The notes beneath the pieces were generated by a model, which saw only the letters and a program-made list of their open reading frames with translations, did not search any database and was not told the origin of the DNA. A stretch of 64,000 nucleotides of DNA from assembly GCF_009363615.1 (NCBI RefSeq), contig NZ_CP045385.1, forward strand, positions 310,001 to 374,000, written 5' to 3'. The number at the start of each line of letters is the position of its first letter. Position 1 is the first letter of the stretch. Both the position numbers and the translations under genes were made by a program. Below are positions 6,639 to 64,000 of this stretch, piece after piece. The DNA is from Ruegeria sp. THAF33. Lineage in GTDB: Bacteria > Pseudomonadota > Alphaproteobacteria > Rhodobacterales > Rhodobacteraceae.

Positions 6639-7583
6639 ATGAATTGTAAAATGGGAATTTCCGCGCTGGCCATCATGGCCGCCGGAGCCGCAACAACTGC
6701 ATGGGCTGTTGAGTCCACGGACCCAATCAAACTGACGCTGCACGACTGGTCGGGGCAGTTGATCAATACCAAGATCATGGGTTCGATCCTGGAAGAAGCC
6801 GGGTACAACGTTGAATATGTTCAGGCGGATTACATTGCTCAGTTCGCCGGTCTGAAAACGGGTGACCTGCATCTGGCAATGGAAATCTGGGAAACGACCG
6901 GACGCGAAGCGCTGGACGAGGCAACCGGCACCGGCAAGGTCGTCAATGTCGGCGAAACCGGCCTGATGGCGATCGAAGAATGGTGGTATCCCAGCTACAT
7001 GAAGGAACGGTGCCCGGGATTGCCGAATTGGGAGGCGCTGAAAGACTGCGCCGAGGAATTCGCGACGGCGGAAACTGCTCCGAACGGGCGTTATGTCGGC
7101 GGCCCGGTGACCTGGGGCGGCTTCGATGACGAGCGTGTCGAAGCGCTTGAACTGGATTTCGAAGTCGTCCATGCGGGCACCGACGCGGCCCTGTTCGCAG
7201 AATTGGAATCCGCTTATCAAAGACAGGATCCAATTGTTCTGTGGGTCTACGTCCCGCATTGGGCGCCGGCGAAATACGAAGGCGAGTTTGTCGAGTTCCC
7301 GCCATTTACGCCAGAGTGTTACAGCGACCCTTCTGTCGGCGTGAACCCGAACATGGCCTATGATTGCGGCAAACCGCGTGGCCCGATCTGGAAAGCAGCC
7401 TGGTCTGGCCTGCAAGAAAAATGGCCGGGCGCTTATGACATCATCGAAGCCTACAAAATCAACAATGATGAAATGAGCGCCTTGGTTGGCAAGGCCGACC
7501 TGGACGGCGTGGAAATCGACAGCGTTGTTGCAGAGTGGATGGAGACCAACAAAGACCGCTGGTCTGGTTGGATCTCGAAGTAA
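6639..7583 (+). CDS. ABC transporter substrate-binding protein, glycine betaine/proline (OpuAC) family
   Basis: The 314-residue protein is predicted to be periplasmic: a signal peptide of about 23 residues ends at TTAWA. The mature part has OpuAC/ProX features, including ADYIAQFAGLKTGDLHLAMEIW and several Trp/Tyr residues (EEWWYPSYM, WVYVPHW) suited to an aromatic cage for a quaternary amine. It is the first gene of a transporter operon and is followed by a terminator-like hairpin. Ligands could be glycine betaine, choline or a related methylated amine. The dehydrogenase downstream argues for a compound degraded by N-demethylation. Confidence 0.85.
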   Translation: MNCKMGISALAIMAAGAATTAWAVESTDPIKLTLHDWSGQLINTKIMGSILEEAGYNVEYVQADYIAQFAGLKTGDLHLAMEIWETTGREALDEATGTGKVVNVGETGLMAIEEWWYPSYMKERCPGLPNWEALKDCAEEFATAETAPNGRYVGGPVTWGGFDDERVEALELDFEVVHAGTDAALFAELESAYQRQDPIVLWVYVPHWAPAKYEGEFVEFPPFTPECYSDPSVGVNPNMAYDCGKPRGPIWKAAWSGLQEKWPGAYDIIEAYKINNDEMSALVGKADLDGVEIDSVVAEWMETNKDRWSGWISK

Positions 7584-7589
7584 TCCACT

Positions 7590-7634
7590 GGCCAGAGCGG
7601 GCCTGTCGCTCTCTCGGACCGCTCTGGCCTTTTT
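7590..7634 (+). terminator. terminator-like hairpin between binding-protein and ATPase genes
   Basis: GGCCAGAGCGG (7590-7600) pairs perfectly with CCGCTCTGGCC (7619-7629), and five T follow. Sitting seven bases after the binding-protein stop and just before the ATPase gene, it is best read as a partial terminator that lets the binding protein be made in excess. Confidence 0.8.
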
Positions 7635-7639
7635 CGCGA

Positions 7640-8680
7640 ATGAACCGGACCACCCTGATGCCCCCCAAGACCAAACTGTCGTGCCGAAACGTCTGGAAGC
7701 TTTATGGCCCCAACGCAGATCGGTTGCTGCGGACAACCCCCGAACCTACGGCAGAAGAAATTCGCAAGGCAGGCGTGATCGGCGCAGTGCGCAACGCCAA
7801 TATCGAGATCTCGGAAGGTGAGATTTTCGTCATCATGGGCCTGTCGGGGTCCGGCAAATCCACTCTGGTTCGGTGTTTGTCTCGGTTGATCGAACCAACC
7901 GCCGGAGAAGTTCTGTTCGACGATGCTGACCTCTTGCGTGCCAGCGAGAATGAGCTGATCGAAATCCGGCGTCACAAGATGGGCATGGTGTTCCAGCATT
8001 TCGCGTTGCTGCCGCATTTGACCGTTTTGCAGAATGTGATGTTTCCGTTGACGATTCAGGCCACACCCAAACCCGAAGCCGGCGCCAAGGCCCGCGAGGT
8101 GGTGGAACTGGTCGGTTTGAAAGGGCGCGAGGATTATTACCCGCGTGAGCTGTCCGGGGGCCAACAACAGCGCGTCGGCATCGCCCGTTCCTTGGTGACC
8201 GAGCCTGATCTATGGTTTCTGGACGAGCCGTTCTCGGCCCTCGATCCGCTGATCCGGCGCGAGATGCAGGATGAATTCCTTAGGTTGCAGGAGCGGTTGC
8301 ACAAGACCATCGTTTTCATCACCCATGATTTCGAAGAGGCCGTTCGCCTGGCCGACCGCATCGCCATCATGAAGGACGGAGAGGTGATCCAGATCGCCAC
8401 GCCGGAAGAGCTGGTGATGCACCCGGCCACAGACTATGTGGCTGAATTCACGAAACATATTCCCCGTTCAAAGGTCCTGACCGTCGGCGGTGTCATGACC
8501 TACGGCGCTGTGGGCGAGGGCGATCCGATCTCTCAATCCACACGCATCTCGGACGTGGCGGAACGGATTATCGCGGCAGATGCGCCGATCGCCGTCGTGG
8601 ATGCAGAGGGCCAACCCGTCGGAGCGATTGACCGCAAGGCCGTTGCGCATGTGCTGTTCGGCGGCGGAGACACGGCATGA
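7640..8680 (+). CDS. ABC transporter ATP-binding protein, glycine betaine/proline (ProV/OpuAA) type
   Basis: The 346-residue ATPase energises the betaine-type importer. Walker A is at residues 67-75 (GLSGSGKST), the signature is LSGGQQQRVGIARS and Walker B is LWFLDEPFSALDP. The long insert before Walker A and a short CBS-like C-terminal region are typical of the ProV family. ATG 7640 is chosen because the open frame further upstream runs through the preceding hairpin. ATG 7658 is an alternative, and neither has a clear ribosome site. The stop overlaps the permease start. Confidence 0.9.
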   Translation: MNRTTLMPPKTKLSCRNVWKLYGPNADRLLRTTPEPTAEEIRKAGVIGAVRNANIEISEGEIFVIMGLSGSGKSTLVRCLSRLIEPTAGEVLFDDADLLRASENELIEIRRHKMGMVFQHFALLPHLTVLQNVMFPLTIQATPKPEAGAKAREVVELVGLKGREDYYPRELSGGQQQRVGIARSLVTEPDLWFLDEPFSALDPLIRREMQDEFLRLQERLHKTIVFITHDFEEAVRLADRIAIMKDGEVIQIATPEELVMHPATDYVAEFTKHIPRSKVLTVGGVMTYGAVGEGDPISQSTRISDVAERIIAADAPIAVVDAEGQPVGAIDRKAVAHVLFGGGDTA

Positions 8681-10668
8681 TCCGCCTGACCCGCAGCCAG
8701 ATGGCAATTCTGCTGCTTGTTCTGATCACCATCGTGCTTGGCTATTTCGGTCGTGATTTGAGCAAGGCGCTGGATGCGCGCTGGTTGACCAAGTTCCCTT
8801 CGGCCTGGGTGATCCCGTTCAAAACCTACATTTCCTCGGCGATGACATGGCTGATCGAGGATGCCGCCATCGGGCCGGTGTCCTTCACCGATGTCACCCG
8901 CGCCATCGCGTGGTTGATCGAGCAGCCCTACAATCTGGTATTGGCCCTGCTGGCCGACGGCTTTGTCAGCGGTCAGGGAAATGACGCGCAGGTCATCCTG
9001 CCTGCGATCAGCTGGATCGTGGTCATCACCGCCGTTGTCGCCTTGGGTCAATATTGCCGTGACTGGGGATTGGCCGCTCTGGTCGGGGCCTGCTTCGTCT
9101 ATCTTGCAGTTTTCGGACAATGGGACAGCGCCATGGTGACGCTGGCCTCGGTCCTGATCGCGGTGCCGATTGGAGCGGGCGGCGGGTTGCTGTTGGGCAT
9201 TCTCGCCTATCGCCATCCGCTTTTTGAAAAGATCATCTCACCAATCCTGGACCTGATGCAGACGATCCCGATCTTTGCCTATCTGGTGCCGATCCTGTTC
9301 ATGTTTGGCTTTGGCCCGATCTCTGCCTTGGTCGCGACGATCATCTATGCGACCCCGCCGATGGTGCGGATCACAACGCTGGCGCTGAAAGGTGTGGATC
9401 CTGAGATTCTGGATTTCGGACGCATGGCGGGCACGACCCGGCGGCAGTTGATGTGGCGTGTGCTTGTGCCCTCGGCCAGCCACAGCCTGATGGTGGGCGT
9501 CAATCAGGTGATCATGCTGACCCTGAACATGGTCATCATCGCCTCGATGATCGGGGCTGGGGGGCTGGGCTTTGACGTCCTCGCCGCGCTCCGCCGTCTG
9601 GACATTGGGGCAGGGTTCGAAGCCGGCATCGCCATCGTGGTACTGGCCATCGCCGTCGACCGTCTGAGCCAGGCCTTTGCCGAACGGATGGGGCAGGTGC
9701 ATCATGAGGTCCCCGGCTCGTGGATCGCGCGTCATCGGCGGACGGTTCTGGTTGTGGTCCTGATGCTGCTGACCTGGGTGCTGGGACAGTTCTCGCCTCT
9801 GTTGCTGGAATATCCTGAAAGTCAGACCATTACCACCGGCGCGTTCTGGGACAACACGGTCGAATACCTGAACGTCAACTATTTCGACACGTTCGAGGCC
9901 ATCAAGGTTTTCTTCCTGACCTGGTTCATGATCCCGATCAAAACTGTTCTGCTGGGCATCCCGTGGCCATGGGCCATCGCGATGCTGTTCCTGTTGGGCT
10001 GGCACGCAGGCGGTTGGCGGCTGGCGTTGCTGTGTGGCGGAATGGCCTCGCTGATACTTGTGTCGGGCCTGTGGTCAAAGGCGATGGTGACAGTGTATCT
10101 GTGCGGCGCATCTGTCATTCTGGCGACGCTGATCGGGGTGCCTCTGGGTGTTCTGGCGGCACTGAACAAACGCGCTGGAACGGCCATCAACCTGCTGATC
10201 GACACGCTGCAAACCCTGCCCAGCTTTGTTTATCTGATCCCTGTCGTCATGCTGTTCCGGGTCGGCGATTTCACCGCCCTGATTGCCATCGTTCTCTATG
10301 CGCTGGCCCCGGCGGTCCGTTATGCCGCCCATGGTGTGCGCTCGGTAAGTGAGGAACTGATCGAGGCGGGTCTGGTTTCGGGCTGCACCCGCAAACAACT
10401 GCTGCGCCATATCCGCCTGCCGATGGCGTTGCCTGAAATCCTGCTGGGCGTCAATCAGACGATCATGCTGGCGCTGTCGATGCTGGTGATCACCGCCCTC
10501 GTCGGCACCCGCGATCTGGGGCAGGAGGTCTATATCGCCCTGACCAAGGCCGATACCGGCCGCGGTCTGGTGGCCGGCCTGTCGATTGCCTTCATCGCCA
10601 TCATCGCTGATCGGTTGATCAATGCCAGTGCCCGCCAGGCCCGCATCCGCTTTGGACTGGAGAGTTGA
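8677..10668 (+). CDS. ABC permease with two fused permease domains, betaine/proline type
   Basis: At 663 residues this is about twice a normal ProW. It contains two copies of the permease core: the first EAA-type loop is around residues 245-290 (GRMAGTTRRQLMWRVLVP, then IGAGGLG) and the second around 565-615 (GLVSGCTRKQLLRHIRLP, then VGTRDLG). Each half has its own hydrophobic segments and a VNQ-IML motif. A single chain could therefore supply both halves of the pore. It is coupled to the ATPase gene by a four-base overlap and followed at once by the kinase-like gene. Confidence 0.9.
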   Translation: MIRLTRSQMAILLLVLITIVLGYFGRDLSKALDARWLTKFPSAWVIPFKTYISSAMTWLIEDAAIGPVSFTDVTRAIAWLIEQPYNLVLALLADGFVSGQGNDAQVILPAISWIVVITAVVALGQYCRDWGLAALVGACFVYLAVFGQWDSAMVTLASVLIAVPIGAGGGLLLGILAYRHPLFEKIISPILDLMQTIPIFAYLVPILFMFGFGPISALVATIIYATPPMVRITTLALKGVDPEILDFGRMAGTTRRQLMWRVLVPSASHSLMVGVNQVIMLTLNMVIIASMIGAGGLGFDVLAALRRLDIGAGFEAGIAIVVLAIAVDRLSQAFAERMGQVHHEVPGSWIARHRRTVLVVVLMLLTWVLGQFSPLLLEYPESQTITTGAFWDNTVEYLNVNYFDTFEAIKVFFLTWFMIPIKTVLLGIPWPWAIAMLFLLGWHAGGWRLALLCGGMASLILVSGLWSKAMVTVYLCGASVILATLIGVPLGVLAALNKRAGTAINLLIDTLQTLPSFVYLIPVVMLFRVGDFTALIAIVLYALAPAVRYAAHGVRSVSEELIEAGLVSGCTRKQLLRHIRLPMALPEILLGVNQTIMLALSMLVITALVGTRDLGQEVYIALTKADTGRGLVAGLSIAFIAIIADRLINASARQARIRFGLES

Positions 10669-57554: not shown

Positions 57555-58616
57555 TCAGCCAAATCGACGGGTTTGAGCCTCGACAAGCGATGGCTTGATT
57601 TGGTCAACGCCTGACGCAGCTACACCTTTGTGCTGCAAATATGACAGACGACGTGCTTCCCTACGGGCAAGAGCCAGAGATTCCAGAATCAAAGCGCAGA
57701 CGATGGACAACATTGTCGCAACAAAACCGGATACTGCGACGACGACAGACGGAATTCTATCGACAAGTCCTGTTTCCAAAAATTCCCGGAATACGGATAC
57801 AAACACAACGAGCGAAGGCAAAAACATCAACACGGCCAATGACAGGAAAAACGCAACGGGCTTTTCATCCTTGATCAACAAGCCGATCATTTTGAGAATC
57901 CGCCATCCGTCGGAAAACGTTGCCAGCTTGGAGTTCGAATCCGGCAGGCGTGACGAATATCTTGTTTGAACCTCACCGATTGGCATGCGCATCTGCATCG
58001 CATGAACTGTCAGCTCTGTTTCAATCTCGAACCCGTTTGATACTGCGGGGAAGCTTTTGACAAAGCGTCTGCTGAAAACGCGGTAACCCGAAAGCAGGTC
58101 GTTGATTTTGCTGTTGAAGAAGAATTTCACAAGCCAACTGAACAACGCGTTGCCAAATTTGTGGCCCCGCCGATAGGCTTCGGTTTCTTCATTCACCCGG
58201 GCGCCGTTGACCATATCCAGATTCTGCGAAACGAGCAGGTCGATCAATTCCGGCGCCGCCGCGCTGTCATAGGTCGCATCCCCGTCAGCCATAACGTAGA
58301 CATCCGCATCAACGTCGGCAAACATTCGACGGACCACGTTGCCTTTGCCCTGGTATGTTTCGGAATAGACTAGGGCGCCTGCCTCAAGCGCGACCTTGAC
58401 GGAGTCGTCGGTGGAATTGTTGTCATATACGTAAATCGTTGCGTCGGGCAGGGCTGCGCGGAATTGCCGAACGGTTTCACCTATGGCAACGGCCTCGTTG
58501 TAGCAGGGCAAGATCACTGCAACGTCCAAATCCGATCTGGTCGTGGACGACGGTGAGCTATTCTGAATATCGAAGGCGCCCTGTATCATATGCAAATCAC
58601 GCTCTTTCATTGGCAT
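57555..58616 (-). CDS. family 2 glycosyltransferase with C-terminal membrane segments
   Basis: The 353-residue protein has a GT2 (GT-A fold) catalytic domain in residues about 30-250: VAVILPCYNEAVAIGETV, VYDNNSTDDS, MADGDATYD as the DxD-like motif and GFEIETELTVHAM. Two hydrophobic segments near 262-285 and 298-320 anchor it in the membrane. It resembles dolichyl-phosphate-mannose-synthase-like and polyprenyl glycosyltransferases. ATG 58616 is used; ATG 58610 is also possible. It is a single gene with its own terminator and no sugar-polymer genes nearby. Confidence 0.85.
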   Translation of the reverse strand: MPMKERDLHMIQGAFDIQNSSPSSTTRSDLDVAVILPCYNEAVAIGETVRQFRAALPDATIYVYDNNSTDDSVKVALEAGALVYSETYQGKGNVVRRMFADVDADVYVMADGDATYDSAAAPELIDLLVSQNLDMVNGARVNEETEAYRRGHKFGNALFSWLVKFFFNSKINDLLSGYRVFSRRFVKSFPAVSNGFEIETELTVHAMQMRMPIGEVQTRYSSRLPDSNSKLATFSDGWRILKMIGLLIKDEKPVAFFLSLAVLMFLPSLVVFVSVFREFLETGLVDRIPSVVVAVSGFVATMLSIVCALILESLALARREARRLSYLQHKGVAASGVDQIKPSLVEAQTRRFG

Positions 58617-58730
58617 CAATTGAATGATGATCGTGCTTGGGGTTAGAAGGTGCTGCGCATTTGAGGCTGTTATGAAGCAGATAAGAGGCCAAAATTTGTC
58701 ATTGTGAAAAACCTCGTGTTTGACGCTGAC

Positions 58731-58760
58731 AAAAAAGGGGCCGATTGAAGAACCGGCCCC
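58731..58760 (-). terminator. terminator of the LysM/PP2C/FHA cluster
   Basis: GGGGCCG (58737-58743) pairs with CGGCCCC (58754-58760). In the minus direction six T follow (58736-58731). It lies 24 bases after the last gene of the cluster. Confidence 0.85.
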
Positions 58761-58783: not shown

Positions 58784-59893
58784 TCAGTTCGAAGCTGCCA
58801 TCAGTTTTTCGTTGTGCTCGCGCAGCGTGTCGGAGACGATCGCATACCATTCCCCGGTTTCGCGCATCTCGTTCAGGCCTTTGTTCAACATCGCCAGGTA
58901 TTGCTTGCCGAACGGATTGCTGCGGTGGCTGATAAAGCGCAGCGAGGACAGCGAGGTCACGTACGGGTTCTCAACCAGGTCGTTCTGGTTCAGTCCCATT
59001 TCAACCATTGTGTCCGAGAACAGCTGAACTTCAAAAGTTGCAACATCTGCGGTGCCGGTAAGGACCGCGTCCAGGCATTCACGTGCGGTGATCGGCTGCA
59101 TCAGCGTAATGGTTTCACCATTGTGCAGACCTTCCTGTTCCAGATCATGGATGAACCAGCCATCCATACGGCAGATGGTGGCGCCCTTCAGTTCTTCAAA
59201 GGTTGTCGCATTCGCATACTGGCTTTCCGGAATGGTGTAGAACCCGACGACAATGTCATAGACCGGAACAGATGAATCGAACTGTGTGCAGCGCACCTCG
59301 GTTTCCCAGGACCATTCGTAAGTGCGGTTGGTGCAATCTGGCATGTTCCACGCCATAGACACGTCAAAGGCGCCAAGAGGCAGAAGAGTTTCCAGGTGCG
59401 AGTTCCAGTCATCCACGAAGCTTACGGAATAGTCGCGCGCGTTGCCGCCGCGCTGCAAAGCCGTGGTGCCCAGACGGGTGATTGCTCCGCCACCGTTCAG
59501 CGATTCATCTGCGAAAGGTGCCCAGCCATTGCCGGTCACCAGCTTGATCGGCGGCTGGTAGACGCTCGAACGTTTTACGCTGGCTGCACGTTGTTCTTCA
59601 GCTGCGATGATTTCCTGCGCGCTCTGACCATTGGGCAGGCTGCCGTCTTCACAGGGAAGGGCCAGAACCAGACCTGGCTCCAGAGCGTTGGGGTTGGTGA
59701 TTTCGTTCCGGTTCGCGTTGAAGATCGGCTGATAGTTCGACGTGCCATAAGCTGCGATTGCAATGGTCGCCATGGTGTCACCGTCTTGGACGGTATAGTT
59801 GGTACAAGCTTCCTGCGCCGCAGCGGCGCCCGCACTCAGAGCAGTGATCGCGGTTGCTGAAAGCGCTACCTTCTTTATCTTCTCGTTAAACAT
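58784..59893 (-). CDS. secreted LysM domain protein with a family 3 solute-binding domain (copy A)
   Basis: The 369-residue protein has a signal peptide (ending AGAAAAQE), then a LysM-like domain (about 30-80: YTVQDGDTMATIAIAAYG...IFNANRNEITNPNALEPGLVL), a short linker and a binding-protein-type domain (about 115-365) with GNGWAPFADESLNGGG, DDWNSHLETLLPLGAFDVSMAW and GTADVATFEV. ATG 59893 is preferred over GTG 59899 because GGAGGA precedes it. It is a paralogue of the next gene. No permease or ATPase is encoded nearby, so the domain may sense or hold a ligand at the cell wall rather than feed an importer. Confidence 0.85.
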   Translation of the reverse strand: MFNEKIKKVALSATAITALSAGAAAAQEACTNYTVQDGDTMATIAIAAYGTSNYQPIFNANRNEITNPNALEPGLVLALPCEDGSLPNGQSAQEIIAAEEQRAASVKRSSVYQPPIKLVTGNGWAPFADESLNGGGAITRLGTTALQRGGNARDYSVSFVDDWNSHLETLLPLGAFDVSMAWNMPDCTNRTYEWSWETEVRCTQFDSSVPVYDIVVGFYTIPESQYANATTFEELKGATICRMDGWFIHDLEQEGLHNGETITLMQPITARECLDAVLTGTADVATFEVQLFSDTMVEMGLNQNDLVENPYVTSLSSLRFISHRSNPFGKQYLAMLNKGLNEMRETGEWYAIVSDTLREHNEKLMAASN

Positions 59894-59937
59894 GTCCACT
59901 TCCTCCAGACTTTAGTTTGTCAGGCCAGATCGGGGCC

Positions 59938-61200
59938 TTATCCATTTTCCATTTGATGACGCAGGGCGGTTGACACGATGTCGCGCCATTCGCCCGATTG
60001 CTGCATGATTGCCAGACCCTGATTCAGCGTCTCAAGGATCGCTTCCCCATCAGGATTATCTTTGTGGGTCATGACGTTAAGCGACTTGATGGCCGCAAGG
60101 TTGGGGTTTTCGATAATCCGGTGCTTGTACCCAAGCCGATCTATTGCCTCGGCTGCCAGATGTGCTTCGATGGCAACGATATCTGCGGTGCCTTCCATCA
60201 GAGCGTGAAAGCAATCATCCGGTGACGTTGGGCGCAGAAGTTTGATGACCGGTTCGTACAGGCTTACCGCGTCCATGTGAGACAAAGACCAACCTTCCGG
60301 CCGGCAGATCGTTGCACCGGCAAAGTCGGCATAGGTCAATGTCTCTTCATAGCCGGAACCTTCCCGGGCGAAGAACGTATCCACAACCTCGTAGAACGGG
60401 TTTGAGAAATTGTAGGTCTCGCACCGGTTGCGATCATCTTCCGACAGCGCAACGGCCTCTTCGCAATTGGGGCGCGACCAGGGGAAGGTGGCGTCAAATG
60501 CAAGCGTCGGCATCAACAGGTCCAGATGGGATGACCAGTCATTGACGAACTGAATCTTGTAGGCCTGTTCGGGAGCGGCACGAAACATCGCTGTCTCAAC
60601 CAGATGGGTATAGAGCCCCCGATTGGGCAGAGATTCATCGGTGAACGGAGCGTAGTTCCCACCGGTGATCAACAGCAATTGACGATCCCGGATTTCGGGC
60701 CGTTCACCCGTTCCGGCATTGCGGATCAAAGCAGCAGCTTCGGCGCGGGCGGCTTCGATTTCTTCCTTGGCAGCAGCCCGTGCTGCAACGACCGCGTCTT
60801 CACTCGCTTTCTTTGCCTCGGCTTCCGCTGCGGCAACACGTGCTTCTGCTTCGGCCACAGCTTTTTCAGCGCGTTCTTCTGCGGCTTTTACCAGCTCAGC
60901 CGCCATTTCCGCAGCCAGCCGCTCTGCCTCGGTATCAGCCAGCACCGGAGCGCGCCCGACATCTTCCAGACATGGCAGTTCCAGAACGTCGCCGACGCGG
61001 ATAATATTGGGGTTGGAACCGATAACATCCCGGTTCGCGTCGAAAATGATGCGAAAGTCTTCCGTCGCATACACTTCGATTGCCAATTCCCGTAAGCTAT
61101 CGCCGCGTTGAATTTCATAACTTGAACACGCCTCTTGCGCAGATGCCGCGCCCGTGGCGGCAGCAAGGGCAAGGCTTGATATGAGTAAGTGCTTTTTCAT
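59938..61200 (-). CDS. secreted LysM domain protein with coiled coil and family 3 solute-binding domain (copy B)
   Basis: The 420-residue protein has a signal peptide (ending GAASAQE), LysM-like region (about 25-78: YEIQRGDSLRELAIEVY...IRVGDVLELP), an Ala/Glu/Arg-rich helix of about 80 residues (90-170) that should form a coiled coil, and a binding-protein-type domain with GGNYAPFTDESLPNRG, DWSSHLDLLMPTLAFDATFPW and GTADIVAIEA. Copy A has the same layout but lacks the helix. The DESL and SHL-LLP motifs and two Cys pairs are shared, pointing to a common origin. Confidence 0.85.
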   Translation of the reverse strand: MKKHLLISSLALAAATGAASAQEACSSYEIQRGDSLRELAIEVYATEDFRIIFDANRDVIGSNPNIIRVGDVLELPCLEDVGRAPVLADTEAERLAAEMAAELVKAAEERAEKAVAEAEARVAAAEAEAKKASEDAVVAARAAAKEEIEAARAEAAALIRNAGTGERPEIRDRQLLLITGGNYAPFTDESLPNRGLYTHLVETAMFRAAPEQAYKIQFVNDWSSHLDLLMPTLAFDATFPWSRPNCEEAVALSEDDRNRCETYNFSNPFYEVVDTFFAREGSGYEETLTYADFAGATICRPEGWSLSHMDAVSLYEPVIKLLRPTSPDDCFHALMEGTADIVAIEAHLAAEAIDRLGYKHRIIENPNLAAIKSLNVMTHKDNPDGEAILETLNQGLAIMQQSGEWRDIVSTALRHQMENG

Positions 61201-61221
61201 GGGTCCTGTTGCTTTGCCTGT

Positions 61222-62004
61222 TTAGGTTCTTGTAAGTTTCGCCACTGCGATAGAAAGGTTGTCCTGATCCGGGTCGCCCTTGGCCTGCACGGCCCTCAGC
61301 AATGCTTCGGCAATGTCTTGTGCCAGACCCTGTTGATGATCCCGCAGAATGGCCTGAATTTCGGTGTCGCTGATGTACTGCAACCCATCACTTCCAAGGA
61401 TCAGGACATCGGCGGGCGACACGATCAATGGATCTTCCGGGCAATCCACTTTGGGAATGGCCCCGCCCGTAACCACGGACGTCAATTGATTGCTGTCCAT
61501 TTCCCGGGCCACCGCTTCGGTGATCTCGCCAGAAGCCACTTTCGACGCAATCACGGGTGCCATCGAGTGATCTTCGTTGACCTGCGTCAACGCTCCATCT
61601 CGAAACAGGTAAAGAGGGCTGTCGCCGATCGAAATCCAGAACACACGCCGCCCCAGAAGAAGGACACCCAACATGGTCGATCCCATGTTGAACCCCTGGC
61701 CCCGGGCCTCGGTGTAGTTGGCGATCGCGGCATTGGCTTGCATGGCGGCCAAAGGAAGCGCATCTATCGCGGATCCTTCGTTCAGGGTTTCTGCCTCAAG
61801 TTCTGCGTCCAGCGCGTCGCGCCAAGCGGCCACTACCATTTCCGAAGCTATTTCACCCGCCTCATGGCCACCCATACCGTCCGCAATCACAACATAGCCC
61901 GCGTCCGACGCGTCAAACATGCGGGCCGCAATCGCGTCTTCCTGCGTTTCCCGCTGACCTTGGTTCAGGATCAGCGCAACATCATATGCCGGAGTTGCCA
62001 GCAT
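61222..62004 (-). CDS. PP2C-family Ser/Thr protein phosphatase
   Basis: The 260-residue protein has the PP2C metal motifs: RETQEDA near the start, VIADGMGGHEAGEIAS (about 38-53), MGSTMLGVLLL, ISIGDSPLYLF, VLILGSDGLQ (near 200) and DPDQDNLSIAV at the end. No membrane segment is seen, so it acts in the cytoplasm. It starts three bases after the FHA gene, so the two are co-transcribed and may work on the same phosphothreonine signal. Confidence 0.93.
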   Translation of the reverse strand: MLATPAYDVALILNQGQRETQEDAIAARMFDASDAGYVVIADGMGGHEAGEIASEMVVAAWRDALDAELEAETLNEGSAIDALPLAAMQANAAIANYTEARGQGFNMGSTMLGVLLLGRRVFWISIGDSPLYLFRDGALTQVNEDHSMAPVIASKVASGEITEAVAREMDSNQLTSVVTGGAIPKVDCPEDPLIVSPADVLILGSDGLQYISDTEIQAILRDHQQGLAQDIAEALLRAVQAKGDPDQDNLSIAVAKLTRT

Positions 62005-62007
62005 TAA

Positions 62008-63048
62008 TCAGGAATCCCGCCAATCAAAACCGTCGTCACAGAAGGCCATGAACCGGATCGAGGTTTCGCTGATGCGGATCAGGTCTCCGCTGGACAGGGC
62101 CACGGTGCTGAGAACAGGTTTGCCGTTCAGACGTACAAGATTGGCCTTGCCGCCATGGCCCAAGTAACACTTCCGGTCTTCGGGATCATAGGCGATGACT
62201 GCATGGTTCGAGCGCGAAATGCCGGTATCGCCAAAATCCAACTGAATGGCCTGGTCATCGTTGCGTCCGATTTGCATTAGGCCTTCGGTCAGAGTAATGC
62301 TTGAACCCCGTCCCGGACCGGCTGTTACGACCAGCCAGCCCACCGGGAATGTCTCTTGCGCCGCTTCTGCTTTCGCTACGGGTTCGGAGGATTCGATCAG
62401 GTCCTGAACATGTGTATCGGCGCGCTCAAATCCCAGAAATGTCGTCTTGACCCGTGAACGGCGATCCTCGACCGGGGCGGGGGCTGGTGCAACCTGCTCA
62501 ATCACCGGCTCAGCGGTCTTTTCGACCTGCTTCGCTTCTGGGGCCGGAGCTTCCGCGACCTCAACCTCGACGACTTCCGGTTCGGTAGGTTCGGACACGA
62601 CCTCGGCCGTTGCTTCCTCTGGCGAAGTCTCGGCGGGTGTTTCCGTCACATGCAGGGTGACAACCTGCTCGACCTCAACCAGTTCTTCGACATGCTCTTC
62701 CACCAGAACGTTTTTCGGAGCGTCGTCCTCTTCCAAGTTGTCTTCTTCTTCCGAACTGTCTTCGGCGAAGATCGACTCCTCGGGGTCGGTCACTGCCTCC
62801 GGCTCGGCCTCGTCGAACTCGGGCATCTTTTCTTCGGGGATCAGTTCATCCGTTTCCTCATAGGATTCGGATGTCATGTTTCCACCAGCCAGGGCGGCGC
62901 GCAAAGCGTTGAAATCCGCAATGGGTTCCTGCTTTGCTTCTTCGCTTACGGCGCCGTCTACTGCGGCCGGTTTCTCGGCAACGTCTTCTTCTTTGGATTT
63001 GCCGGCACCTTCGAGAAGCCGGCTCAGAGGGCTTTTGTATTTGAACAT
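62008..63048 (-). CDS. FHA domain protein with a long acidic N-terminal region
   Basis: The 346-residue protein begins MFKYKSPLSRLLEGAGK. Residues about 20-210 are low in complexity and very rich in Glu, Pro, Ala and Val, probably disordered. Residues about 235-340 form an FHA domain: MQIGRNDDQAIQLDFGDTGISRSNHAVI contains the conserved Gly-Arg and Ser-Arg-x-His that bind phosphothreonine, followed by LVRLNGKPV and SGDLIRI. It probably docks phosphorylated partners in the pathway of the adjacent PP2C. Confidence 0.9.
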   Translation of the reverse strand: MFKYKSPLSRLLEGAGKSKEEDVAEKPAAVDGAVSEEAKQEPIADFNALRAALAGGNMTSESYEETDELIPEEKMPEFDEAEPEAVTDPEESIFAEDSSEEEDNLEEDDAPKNVLVEEHVEELVEVEQVVTLHVTETPAETSPEEATAEVVSEPTEPEVVEVEVAEAPAPEAKQVEKTAEPVIEQVAPAPAPVEDRRSRVKTTFLGFERADTHVQDLIESSEPVAKAEAAQETFPVGWLVVTAGPGRGSSITLTEGLMQIGRNDDQAIQLDFGDTGISRSNHAVIAYDPEDRKCYLGHGGKANLVRLNGKPVLSTVALSSGDLIRISETSIRFMAFCDDGFDWRDS

Positions 63049-63249
63049 GGTGTCGACACCTTCAAGTTAGTGACGCAGATAAGCCGCGTCGTAAGCTGCT
63101 ACTGTTCCCTGCACGTCAGCGCAGAGCCACTCAATGGATACCCATGGGAACTGGTACATTCTGCGGCGGGCCGGTTCCCGCCAGGGTGGCAAAACTTGAT
63201 ACCACCCTCAGCAAACACACACTGGCAGATCACTTTTGAACCGGTCAGA

Positions 63250-64000
63250 TTACTCCTGTGCAAGCTGCATGATTGCGGCCGTCTCGGCCCCATTGCGCAA
63301 CACTGTCAGATTTGCCTCGGGCTGCTCGCTTGAAACGAGTGCGGCCAGCATCTCATCAAGGCTTTCCGAGCCGTCAAATGTGATGCCGGAATGGCTTTCA
63401 TTCAGCAGGACATCGTCTTTTTGCAGGCTTCCTGCCGCGTCAGCCGGAACTGCGTTCACCGTGGTTTGCCATCCGCTATTGCCTTCGGCGCTAACGGTAA
63501 AGGTGTAACCATTTTCCAATCCAACGGATCGTATGGCGGGAAGGGCCAACAGACCATTTTGCGCCCGGGTCTGACCCAGCGGGCGATAGCGGGCAGCAAC
63601 CCTTGTGTACCCATCGGCGTCAACCTTCAGGTTATCCAGAACCTGCGCCGCAAAAGGAACATCCTGACGGACTGGGCTGCCATTCAGGGTATAGATGACA
63701 GCGCCACGCTGTACCCAATCGCCGATCACGCTCATGTCCTGATTGGCGTCCACCCCCGTAACTGCAATGGTGGCTCCGGTCGAGCCGCGGCGGCGGGATG
63801 TCTGGAAGGGGATATCGACATCCCAATGCGCAAACGCCACCTGCTGTTCCGCCGGAACTCCGGCGTTGGCAATTGCATCAGTCGCAGGTGTCTCGATCTC
63901 AGACACTGCTGCAATATCAGTCGCTTCTTCCGACTGTGCCGGAACTTCGGAACGTTCAGTGTCTGCGGAGGCTGTTTCTGTGGCAGCTGGCTCCGCAGGT
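63250..64000 (-). CDS. C-terminal part of a protein with PDZ-like repeats (partial)
   Basis: The frame runs from the window edge to TAA 63252-63250, so the N-terminus is missing. The first visible 40 or so residues are rich in Ala, Glu, Pro and Thr, like the FHA protein. Two stretches then look PDZ-like: VQRGAVIYTLNGSPV and, at the end, SLQKDDVLLNESHSGITF...LDEMLAALV...LTVLRNG. A GTG at 63906 is not a start, because the frame is open to the edge. The gene precedes the FHA gene by 201 bases that hold two GC hairpins and no T tract. A link to a Ser/Thr kinase or protease upstream is possible but not visible. Confidence 0.6.
   Translation of the reverse strand, partial: PAEPAATETASADTERSEVPAQSEEATDIAAVSEIETPATDAIANAGVPAEQQVAFAHWDVDIPFQTSRRRGSTGATIAVTGVDANQDMSVIGDWVQRGAVIYTLNGSPVRQDVPFAAQVLDNLKVDADGYTRVAARYRPLGQTRAQNGLLALPAIRSVGLENGYTFTVSAEGNSGWQTTVNAVPADAAGSLQKDDVLLNESHSGITFDGSESLDEMLAALVSSEQPEANLTVLRNGAETAAIMQLAQE

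Follow-up and report, generated by a model that had tools for sequence, protein, structure and literature searches.

Why should a pair of secreted LysM/solute-binding proteins (SBP1 and SBP2) be encoded next to a phosphothreonine reader (an FHA protein) and a phosphothreonine eraser (a PP2C phosphatase)? The question is raised by one end of a 64,000-nucleotide stretch of Ruegeria sp. THAF33 (the window; positions 310001-374000 of contig C2 in a 4.63-Mb genome of five contigs), where the list of open reading frames (ORFs) contains five features, all on the minus strand: SBP2, SBP1, PP2C, FHA and a kinase frame that crosses the window edge. The original prediction regarded them as a five-gene sensor operon served by an unseen Ser/Thr kinase, and upon extending the sequence past position 64000 the next gene indeed proved to encode a membrane Ser/Thr kinase and not a protein unrelated to phosphorylation. 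The five genes were confirmed, but the unit comprises 12 same-strand genes, and the prediction had missed four dynamin-like GTPases (DLP1-DLP4) as well as an alternative binding protein, a fusion of a periplasmic-binding protein (PBP) domain with OmpA. The sensor-system reading is supported, with ligand binding, kinase contact and phospho-relay as its predicted steps. We hold it slightly better than an even bet that the SBPs act as co-receptors of a PDZ receptor kinase which, through an FHA/PP2C switch, would govern dynamin-like membrane remodelling.

The kinase and its predicted tandem PDZ ectodomain

The kinase consists of 728 amino acids (positions 7251-9437 of locus L001) and was recognized by the Pfam model Pkinase with an E-value of 1.1e-27; its catalytic motifs are kept in 99 of 99 distinct relatives. 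A hydrophobic segment at residues 398-416 provides for one membrane helix, and among the 12 proteins of the cluster hydrophobic windows over the threshold were encountered in the kinase only, if a single borderline one within the DLP1 GTPase fold is disregarded. What had been described as a 'PDZ-like protein' is not a separate protein but corresponds to residues 480-728, the last third of the kinase; the PDZ assignment itself stood, as an AlphaFold2 (AF2) model of the ectodomain (pLDDT 92.6, pTM 0.83) displays a tandem PDZ fold, and the piece is the extracytoplasmic end of the kinase. Matches of the ectodomain were of the HtrA type, including the PDZ domains of DegP and of the stress sensor DegS. 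Pfam detected PDZ_2 in 7/17 ectodomain relatives (best 4.3e-9) and gave no PDZ_2 match in the window's own ectodomain sequence. Also, no PASTA repeat was found in the kinase by Pfam, and the PknB_PASTA model scored 132.8 bits, with a cut-off of 450.

The two secreted LysM/binding-fold paralogues that had been postulated to lack a permease or ATPase are both present, each with a signal peptide as judged by eye, and neither a permease nor a transport ATPase is encoded among the 12 cluster genes. In SBP1, the signal peptide is followed by LysM, an Ala/Glu-rich spacer and an amino-acid-type binding domain. The SBP_bac_3 match of SBP1 amounted to 21.8 bits, below the Pfam cut-off of 26.4 bits, and Pfam reported no LysM in this protein; a profile of SBP1 relatives matched the LysM domain of Kbp (7pvc, 1.8e-8) and amino-acid-binding proteins (4ymx, 6.2e-5). 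For SBP2, which has six conserved cysteines, SBP_bac_3 reached only 0.15. Pocket residues, assigned by sequence only, are well kept in the alignment: Arg259 in 42/44 SBP1 and 39/48 SBP2 proteins, and an acid at position 345 (Glu345 in SBP1) in 43/44 and 46/48, respectively. SBP1 and SBP2 probably present an amino-acid-type Venus-flytrap domain, with binding itself predicted. The C-termini of the SBPs, considered as ligands of the PDZ domains, were set aside, since the alignments show no hydrophobic ends. At loci L049, L050 and L053, two SBP-related genes lie next to each other with no kinase match in about 20 kb; these genes branch off separately in the SBP tree, from which 48 of the 111 SBP rows had been dropped beforehand.

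Association of the kinase ectodomain with binding proteins

The neighbourhoods of 94 complete kinases were compared, leaving out five truncated by contig ends (L087, L101, L117, L120, L122); the cut kinase of L154 fell below the score limit and was not counted. The selection was not random: a locus entered it either for the similarity of its kinase or because the ectodomain was missing. With a distance limit of 9 kb, centre to centre, LysM-SBPs were found near 46/69 kinases with the ectodomain and near 0/25 without it. When the whole fetched locus was taken as the limit, a PBP-OmpA fusion was present at 8 of the 23 other ectodomain kinases (L091, L114, L116, L121, L128, L133, L139, L141), at a distance of about 10 kb or more in L128, L133, L139 and L141, and as a 69-amino-acid fragment at the locus end in L139. 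For L114 (two genes), L116 and L121, Pfam confirmed the PBP_like_2-OmpA domains, and L119 carries PBP-OmpA and LysM-SBP together. As OmpA-type domains bind peptidoglycan, PBP-OmpA would be a second kind of wall-anchored binding protein. When 10 near-identical kinases are removed and a tree is built from the other 84, the OmpA label requires 6 changes, at least 4 of them on supported branches, indicating that its association with the kinase arose or was lost repeatedly. Sets consisting of kinase, SBP1 and SBP2 without FHA, PP2C or dynamin genes in the fetched stretch (L093, L094, L104, L110-L113; Tabrizicola, Rhodobacter and one bin) tie the SBP pair to the kinase. In summary, gene order argues strongly for a link between kinase and binding proteins, and the evolutionary evidence is suggestive. 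At L121 (5860-8324; uncultured Ruegeria), genes for a CHASE2-cyclase and a FecR-domain protein lie divergent from a second kinase cluster.

The FHA/PP2C pair and the dynamin-like GTPases

The FHA reader and PP2C eraser expected beside the SBP pair were both recognized by Pfam. The FHA protein has a long low-complexity N-terminus and a C-terminal FHA domain in which GR is conserved in 76/77, NG in 61/77 and SRxxHA in 77/77 distinct relatives. Its N-terminus is poorly conserved except for a motif R-x-[KR]-T-x-x-x-G-[FLHY], which is present in 77/77 FHA proteins and in no other family of the cluster; the threonine, Thr202, is kept in all 37 aligned FHA proteins. By analogy with GarA/OdhI, whose example is the basis for reading an N-terminal threonine motif in this way, Thr202 is a candidate for both kinase target and FHA ligand. 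The motif differs from ETTS, the N-terminal phosphothreonine motif of the GarA type. In PP2C, DGMGGH is kept in 74, GDS in 75 and SDG in 74 of the 75 distinct relatives, and the last motif as written in 46/75. A search of the window's own genome with the Pfam FHA profile gave 0 matches, though hmmscan scores this very FHA protein at 6.7e-8; as a real FHA protein was missed, absences from such genome profile searches can be false.

For all four DLPs, the Dynamin_N GTPase domain scored above the Pfam cut-off, and the P-loop was found in 72/72 DLP1, 68/68 DLP2, 29/29 DLP3 and 35/35 DLP4 distinct sequences. DLP1 is related to the Campylobacter DLP 5owv and to the bacterial dynamin-like protein 2j68. 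GTPase motifs occur in 72/72 DLP1 proteins and a WWxxWW patch in 65/72; the latter might make contact with the membrane, a hint only of remodelling activity. For the small proteins g04 and g05 a search of solved structures revealed no credible relatives, and g04 relatives gave no credible Pfam match; a roadblock-type fold of g04 would be a guess. In three family members (L162, L163, L164), four dynamin-like genes, the DLP1-DLP2 type twice, occur with no kinase, FHA or PP2C match in 20 kb. In Leisingera (L166, 11628-12863), the public record labels the gene in the small-GTPase position 'zeta toxin family protein'; it is perhaps a misannotated P-loop GTPase.

Conservation and distribution of the cluster

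Conservation of the gene order in other Rhodobacterales, which had been proposed as a check, was found in several genera. Among the best 80 of 568 confirmed candidates from a named-genome scan with the kinase alignment, 25 loci (L065-L086, L088, L089, L092) keep all 12 families collinear on a single strand, with an incomplete SBP2 near a contig end in L089. They belong to Ruegeria, Roseovarius albus, Aliiroseovarius and one alphaproteobacterial bin. The 12-gene order is present in all ten same-genus genomes matching SBP1, a count over SBP1-matching genomes, with 127 non-matching rows outside it, and also on a 743-kb Ruegeria plasmid. Rearranged clusters occur in Frigidibacter, Defluviimonas and Actibacterium; in the latter two the GTPase arm lies on the opposite strand, and no DLP3 was seen at the Frigidibacter locus. 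In loci of the Yoonia/Loktanella type the order is kinase-FHA-PP2C-DLP4-DLP1-DLP2-g04, and no SBPs were seen.

In genome samples, SBP1 relatives were detected in 49/196 genomes of the order (E 1e-10). Of 295 family genomes, 75 gave a match to DLP1 (E 1e-100) and 30 to the kinase ectodomain (E 1e-6). In the class, DLP1 was detected in 2/385 genomes (E 1e-40), both from the same family as the window. A further 20 DLP1 loci were picked for the lack of an ectodomain match in their genomes, and in 16 of them Ser/Thr kinase, FHA and PP2C genes adjoin the GTPases. Complete plasmids that encode DLP1 comprise four Ruegeria records (389-787 kb, 89-98% identity; one with a DLP1 98.1% identical), 12 Leisingera records (33-179 kb, 40-44% identity) and one Rhodobacter record. 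Leisingera sp. S132 carries an SBP-less and an SBP-bearing version on two plasmids.

A proposed mechanism and its rivals

The observed gene content, order, conservation and motifs, taken together with the predicted ectodomain fold, are consistent with the following mechanism. The two secreted proteins would hold the wall by LysM and present their flytrap domains, which when ligand-bound might touch the periplasmic tandem PDZ of the kinase and set its activity. As the conserved motifs and the gene order suggest, the kinase may then phosphorylate the FHA protein at the Thr202 motif, phospho-Thr202 would be read by an FHA domain, either that of its own molecule or that of another, and PP2C would erase it. 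The co-conservation of the GTPases suggests that this switch governs them and that they remodel or tether membrane, and the cluster would in this way couple a periplasmic ligand or the state of the wall to membrane remodelling. A broader proposal, which we advance tentatively and consider somewhat less probable than not, is that LysM-SBP and PBP-OmpA, two unrelated kinds of wall-tethered flytrap protein, are exchangeable ligand modules of a tandem-PDZ kinase whose FHA/PP2C switch drives the GTPases. They would make up a new class of receptor-kinase system in which threonine phosphorylation lets a ligand or the wall gate membrane remodelling.

Several observations weigh against this mechanism. 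Neither kind of binding protein is seen in the fetched stretch at 15 of the 69 ectodomain kinases (the Yoonia/Loktanella group, L097, L115 and others), LysM/SBP relatives exist without a kinase, and the comparison of the ectodomain with any binding protein reduces to 3 independent contrasts, for which sign tests gave p values of 0.25-1. The FHA loop here, SRxxH, exceeds the usual SRxH by one residue. At the output end, 3/20 ectodomain-negative DLP1 loci are four-GTPase arrays without a kinase and another 1/20 has none in 20 kb; since such kinase-less dynamin arrays exist, as do dynamin-less kinase-SBP sets, the output link looks looser than the input link.

The kinases without any binding protein, together with the modelled PDZ fold and its DegP and DegS matches, would suit a kinase that senses envelope stress by itself, its PDZ binding, as in DegS, the exposed C-termini of misfolded envelope proteins, with the LysM-SBPs serving only to position it. 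We regard this as unlikely, because the SBP domains retain the residues of an amino-acid pocket, two diverged SBP paralogues side by side would not be needed for placement alone, and this kinase family also has a binding protein of a different fold among its neighbours. Less probable still is a defence against phage or membrane attack in which the kinase senses envelope damage and the GTPases reseal the membrane, as proposed for DynA, for which phage resistance is described in PMC8844932. The 12-gene order in all ten matching same-genus genomes is unlike a patchy defence gene, and the neighbours include genes for an acyl-CoA dehydrogenase, an importer and isocitrate dehydrogenase; on the other hand, versions of the cluster reside on the Leisingera plasmids, and genes for a peptidase and an SOS-associated peptidase are located near the AD91A cluster. 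PADLOC gave weak partial matches of the GTPases to LeoA/LeoBC (best 6e-10), which favour defence, but its defence models gave no match for SBP2, PP2C, FHA, g04 or g05, and its kinase matches look like generic kinase similarity.

It seems very improbable that the LysM-SBPs work for an importer whose genes lie elsewhere and that their position in the cluster is irrelevant to signalling. The SBP_bac_3-type fold, the related genes away from kinases and the importers about 5 kb beyond either cluster end (a BMP-type one and ugpC) would fit such a role, but the binding proteins or ATPases of these importers belong to other families, kinase-SBP1-SBP2 sets recur across genera, and no permease is found in the annotated AD91A cluster either. 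A binding domain serving a known importer, which would have spoken against the original prediction, did not turn up among the 12 genes, which encode no permease or transport ATPase; the nearby importers have binding proteins of their own.

Layout of the locus

Coordinates of the window features are given in the table. In all five window genes, third codon positions carry most of the differences to three orthologous loci. Seven more genes of the cluster lie beyond the window edge, and going upstream from the kinase their order is DLP4 (428 amino acids), DLP3 (680), g05 (299), g04 (133), DLP2 (583), DLP1 (670) and g01 (at most 197). Past g01 follow genes for an acyl-CoA dehydrogenase, an AraC-type regulator and the BMP-type importer with its own binding protein.

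The single transcript with a clear terminator that had been proposed is supported in part. A terminator-like stem, GGGGCCGGTTCTTCAATCGGCCCC followed by TTTTTT, lies right behind the last gene, SBP2, and a second such stem separates the kinase gene from DLP4, which is the last of the GTPase genes (L001, 9740-9717). As this second stem precedes the kinase gene, the cluster may form two transcripts rather than one. Over a 17.4-kb scan, terminator-like sites were near chance (23, with a shuffled mean of 19.7), but the stem behind SBP2 has 10 pairs and directly follows the end of the cluster. A gene for a family 2 glycosyltransferase (57555-58619), past the terminator on the same strand, is found at that place in only some Ruegeria loci.

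Table. Features of the cluster within the window and the evidence on which each assignment is based.
Feature	Position in window	Strand	Evidence
SBP2, LysM + solute-binding protein, 371 aa	58784..59899	-	ORF; Pfam LysM 1.7e-4; alignment with SBP1; tree
SBP1, LysM + solute-binding protein, 420 aa	59938..61200	-	SBP_bac_3 1.7e-4; profile matches
PP2C phosphatase, 260 aa	61222..62004	-	Pfam PP2C_2 5e-13
FHA protein, 346 aa	62008..63048	-	Pfam FHA 6.7e-8
Conserved threonine motif R-x-K-T-T-x-L-G-F (Thr202), N-terminal to FHA domain	62428..62454	-	alignment; candidate kinase target
Kinase gene, 3' part	63250..64000	-	extends past window to contig C2 position 375436
Kinase ectodomain, last 201 residues, predicted tandem PDZ	63250..63855	-	AF2 model
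Terminator-like stem, 10 pairs, then six T, 3' of last gene	58737..58760	-	sequence scan

Comparison with known systems

The original prediction knew of no described system with this make-up. For the whole gene combination this stands within the searches made of the open-licence PMC literature, which turned up none, but the principle has a precedent: according to PMC6069109, the binding protein GlnH controls the kinase PknG and the FHA protein GarA in Actinobacteria. That paper proposes sensing for Ser/Thr kinases as a new role of binding proteins and names as outstanding the question of which stimuli activate such kinases in bacteria. PMC5448819 does not mention GlnH or GlnX. GlnH-GlnX-PknG-GarA is the nearest system in principle, and the threonine-phosphorylation pathway of the type VI secretion system (T6SS) is the nearest in parts.

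With GlnH-GlnX-PknG-GarA/OdhI the cluster shares an SBP in a Ser/Thr kinase operon, used there for sensing and accompanied here by no permease, an FHA protein, which is the phospho-target there and a candidate one here, and a putative amino-acid-type pocket with an Arg and an acid. According to PMC6069109, GlnH is a putative lipoprotein and acts with a separate membrane protein, GlnX, whereas nothing GlnX-like was found among the 12 proteins here; PknG has TPR and rubredoxin domains and no membrane helix, whereas the kinase here has one helix and no such Pfam match. Further differences are the LysM wall anchors, the SBP pair, the modelled PDZ ectodomain, the in-cluster PP2C and the four dynamin-like GTPases.

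The T6SS pathway PpkA-Fha-PppA resembles the cluster in its membrane Ser/Thr kinase with a periplasmic domain, its FHA protein, its PP2C (PppA) and an envelope partner, TssW (PMC12607579); the PDZ ectodomain, the wall-anchored binding proteins and the dynamin-like neighbours set the present cluster apart. The T6SS sheath protein VipB/TssC (PF05943) was found in 0/1 own genome with a positive E. coli control, by the same kind of genome search that missed the real FHA protein. PASTA kinases (PknB/Stk) bear extracellular PASTA repeats where this kinase would have PDZ. The modelled tandem PDZ fold is shared with the HtrA family (DegP, DegS), but no protease domain is present here and the PDZ pair is joined via the membrane helix to a cytoplasmic kinase. 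An ABC importer with an SBP would include the permease and ATPase missing from these 12 genes, and to LeoABC and other defence dynamins the GTPases gave the weak partial matches only. The paired dynamin-like proteins Cj-DLP1/2 share the arrangement of neighbouring Dynamin_N GTPase genes (PMC6104087, and the 5owv match); kinase control is not named in the abstract of that paper, whereas the GTPases here co-occur with Ser/Thr kinase, FHA, PP2C and small proteins.

We file the dynamin-like neighbours as the new element in signalling from binding protein to Ser/Thr kinase. The cluster brings together a sensor, a kinase, a reader and an eraser with a candidate output, has natural sensor alternatives, and supplies a testable regulator for bacterial dynamins. 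Next to the GlnH system, it is a second candidate case of binding-protein sensing for a Ser/Thr kinase, in Gram-negative marine bacteria.

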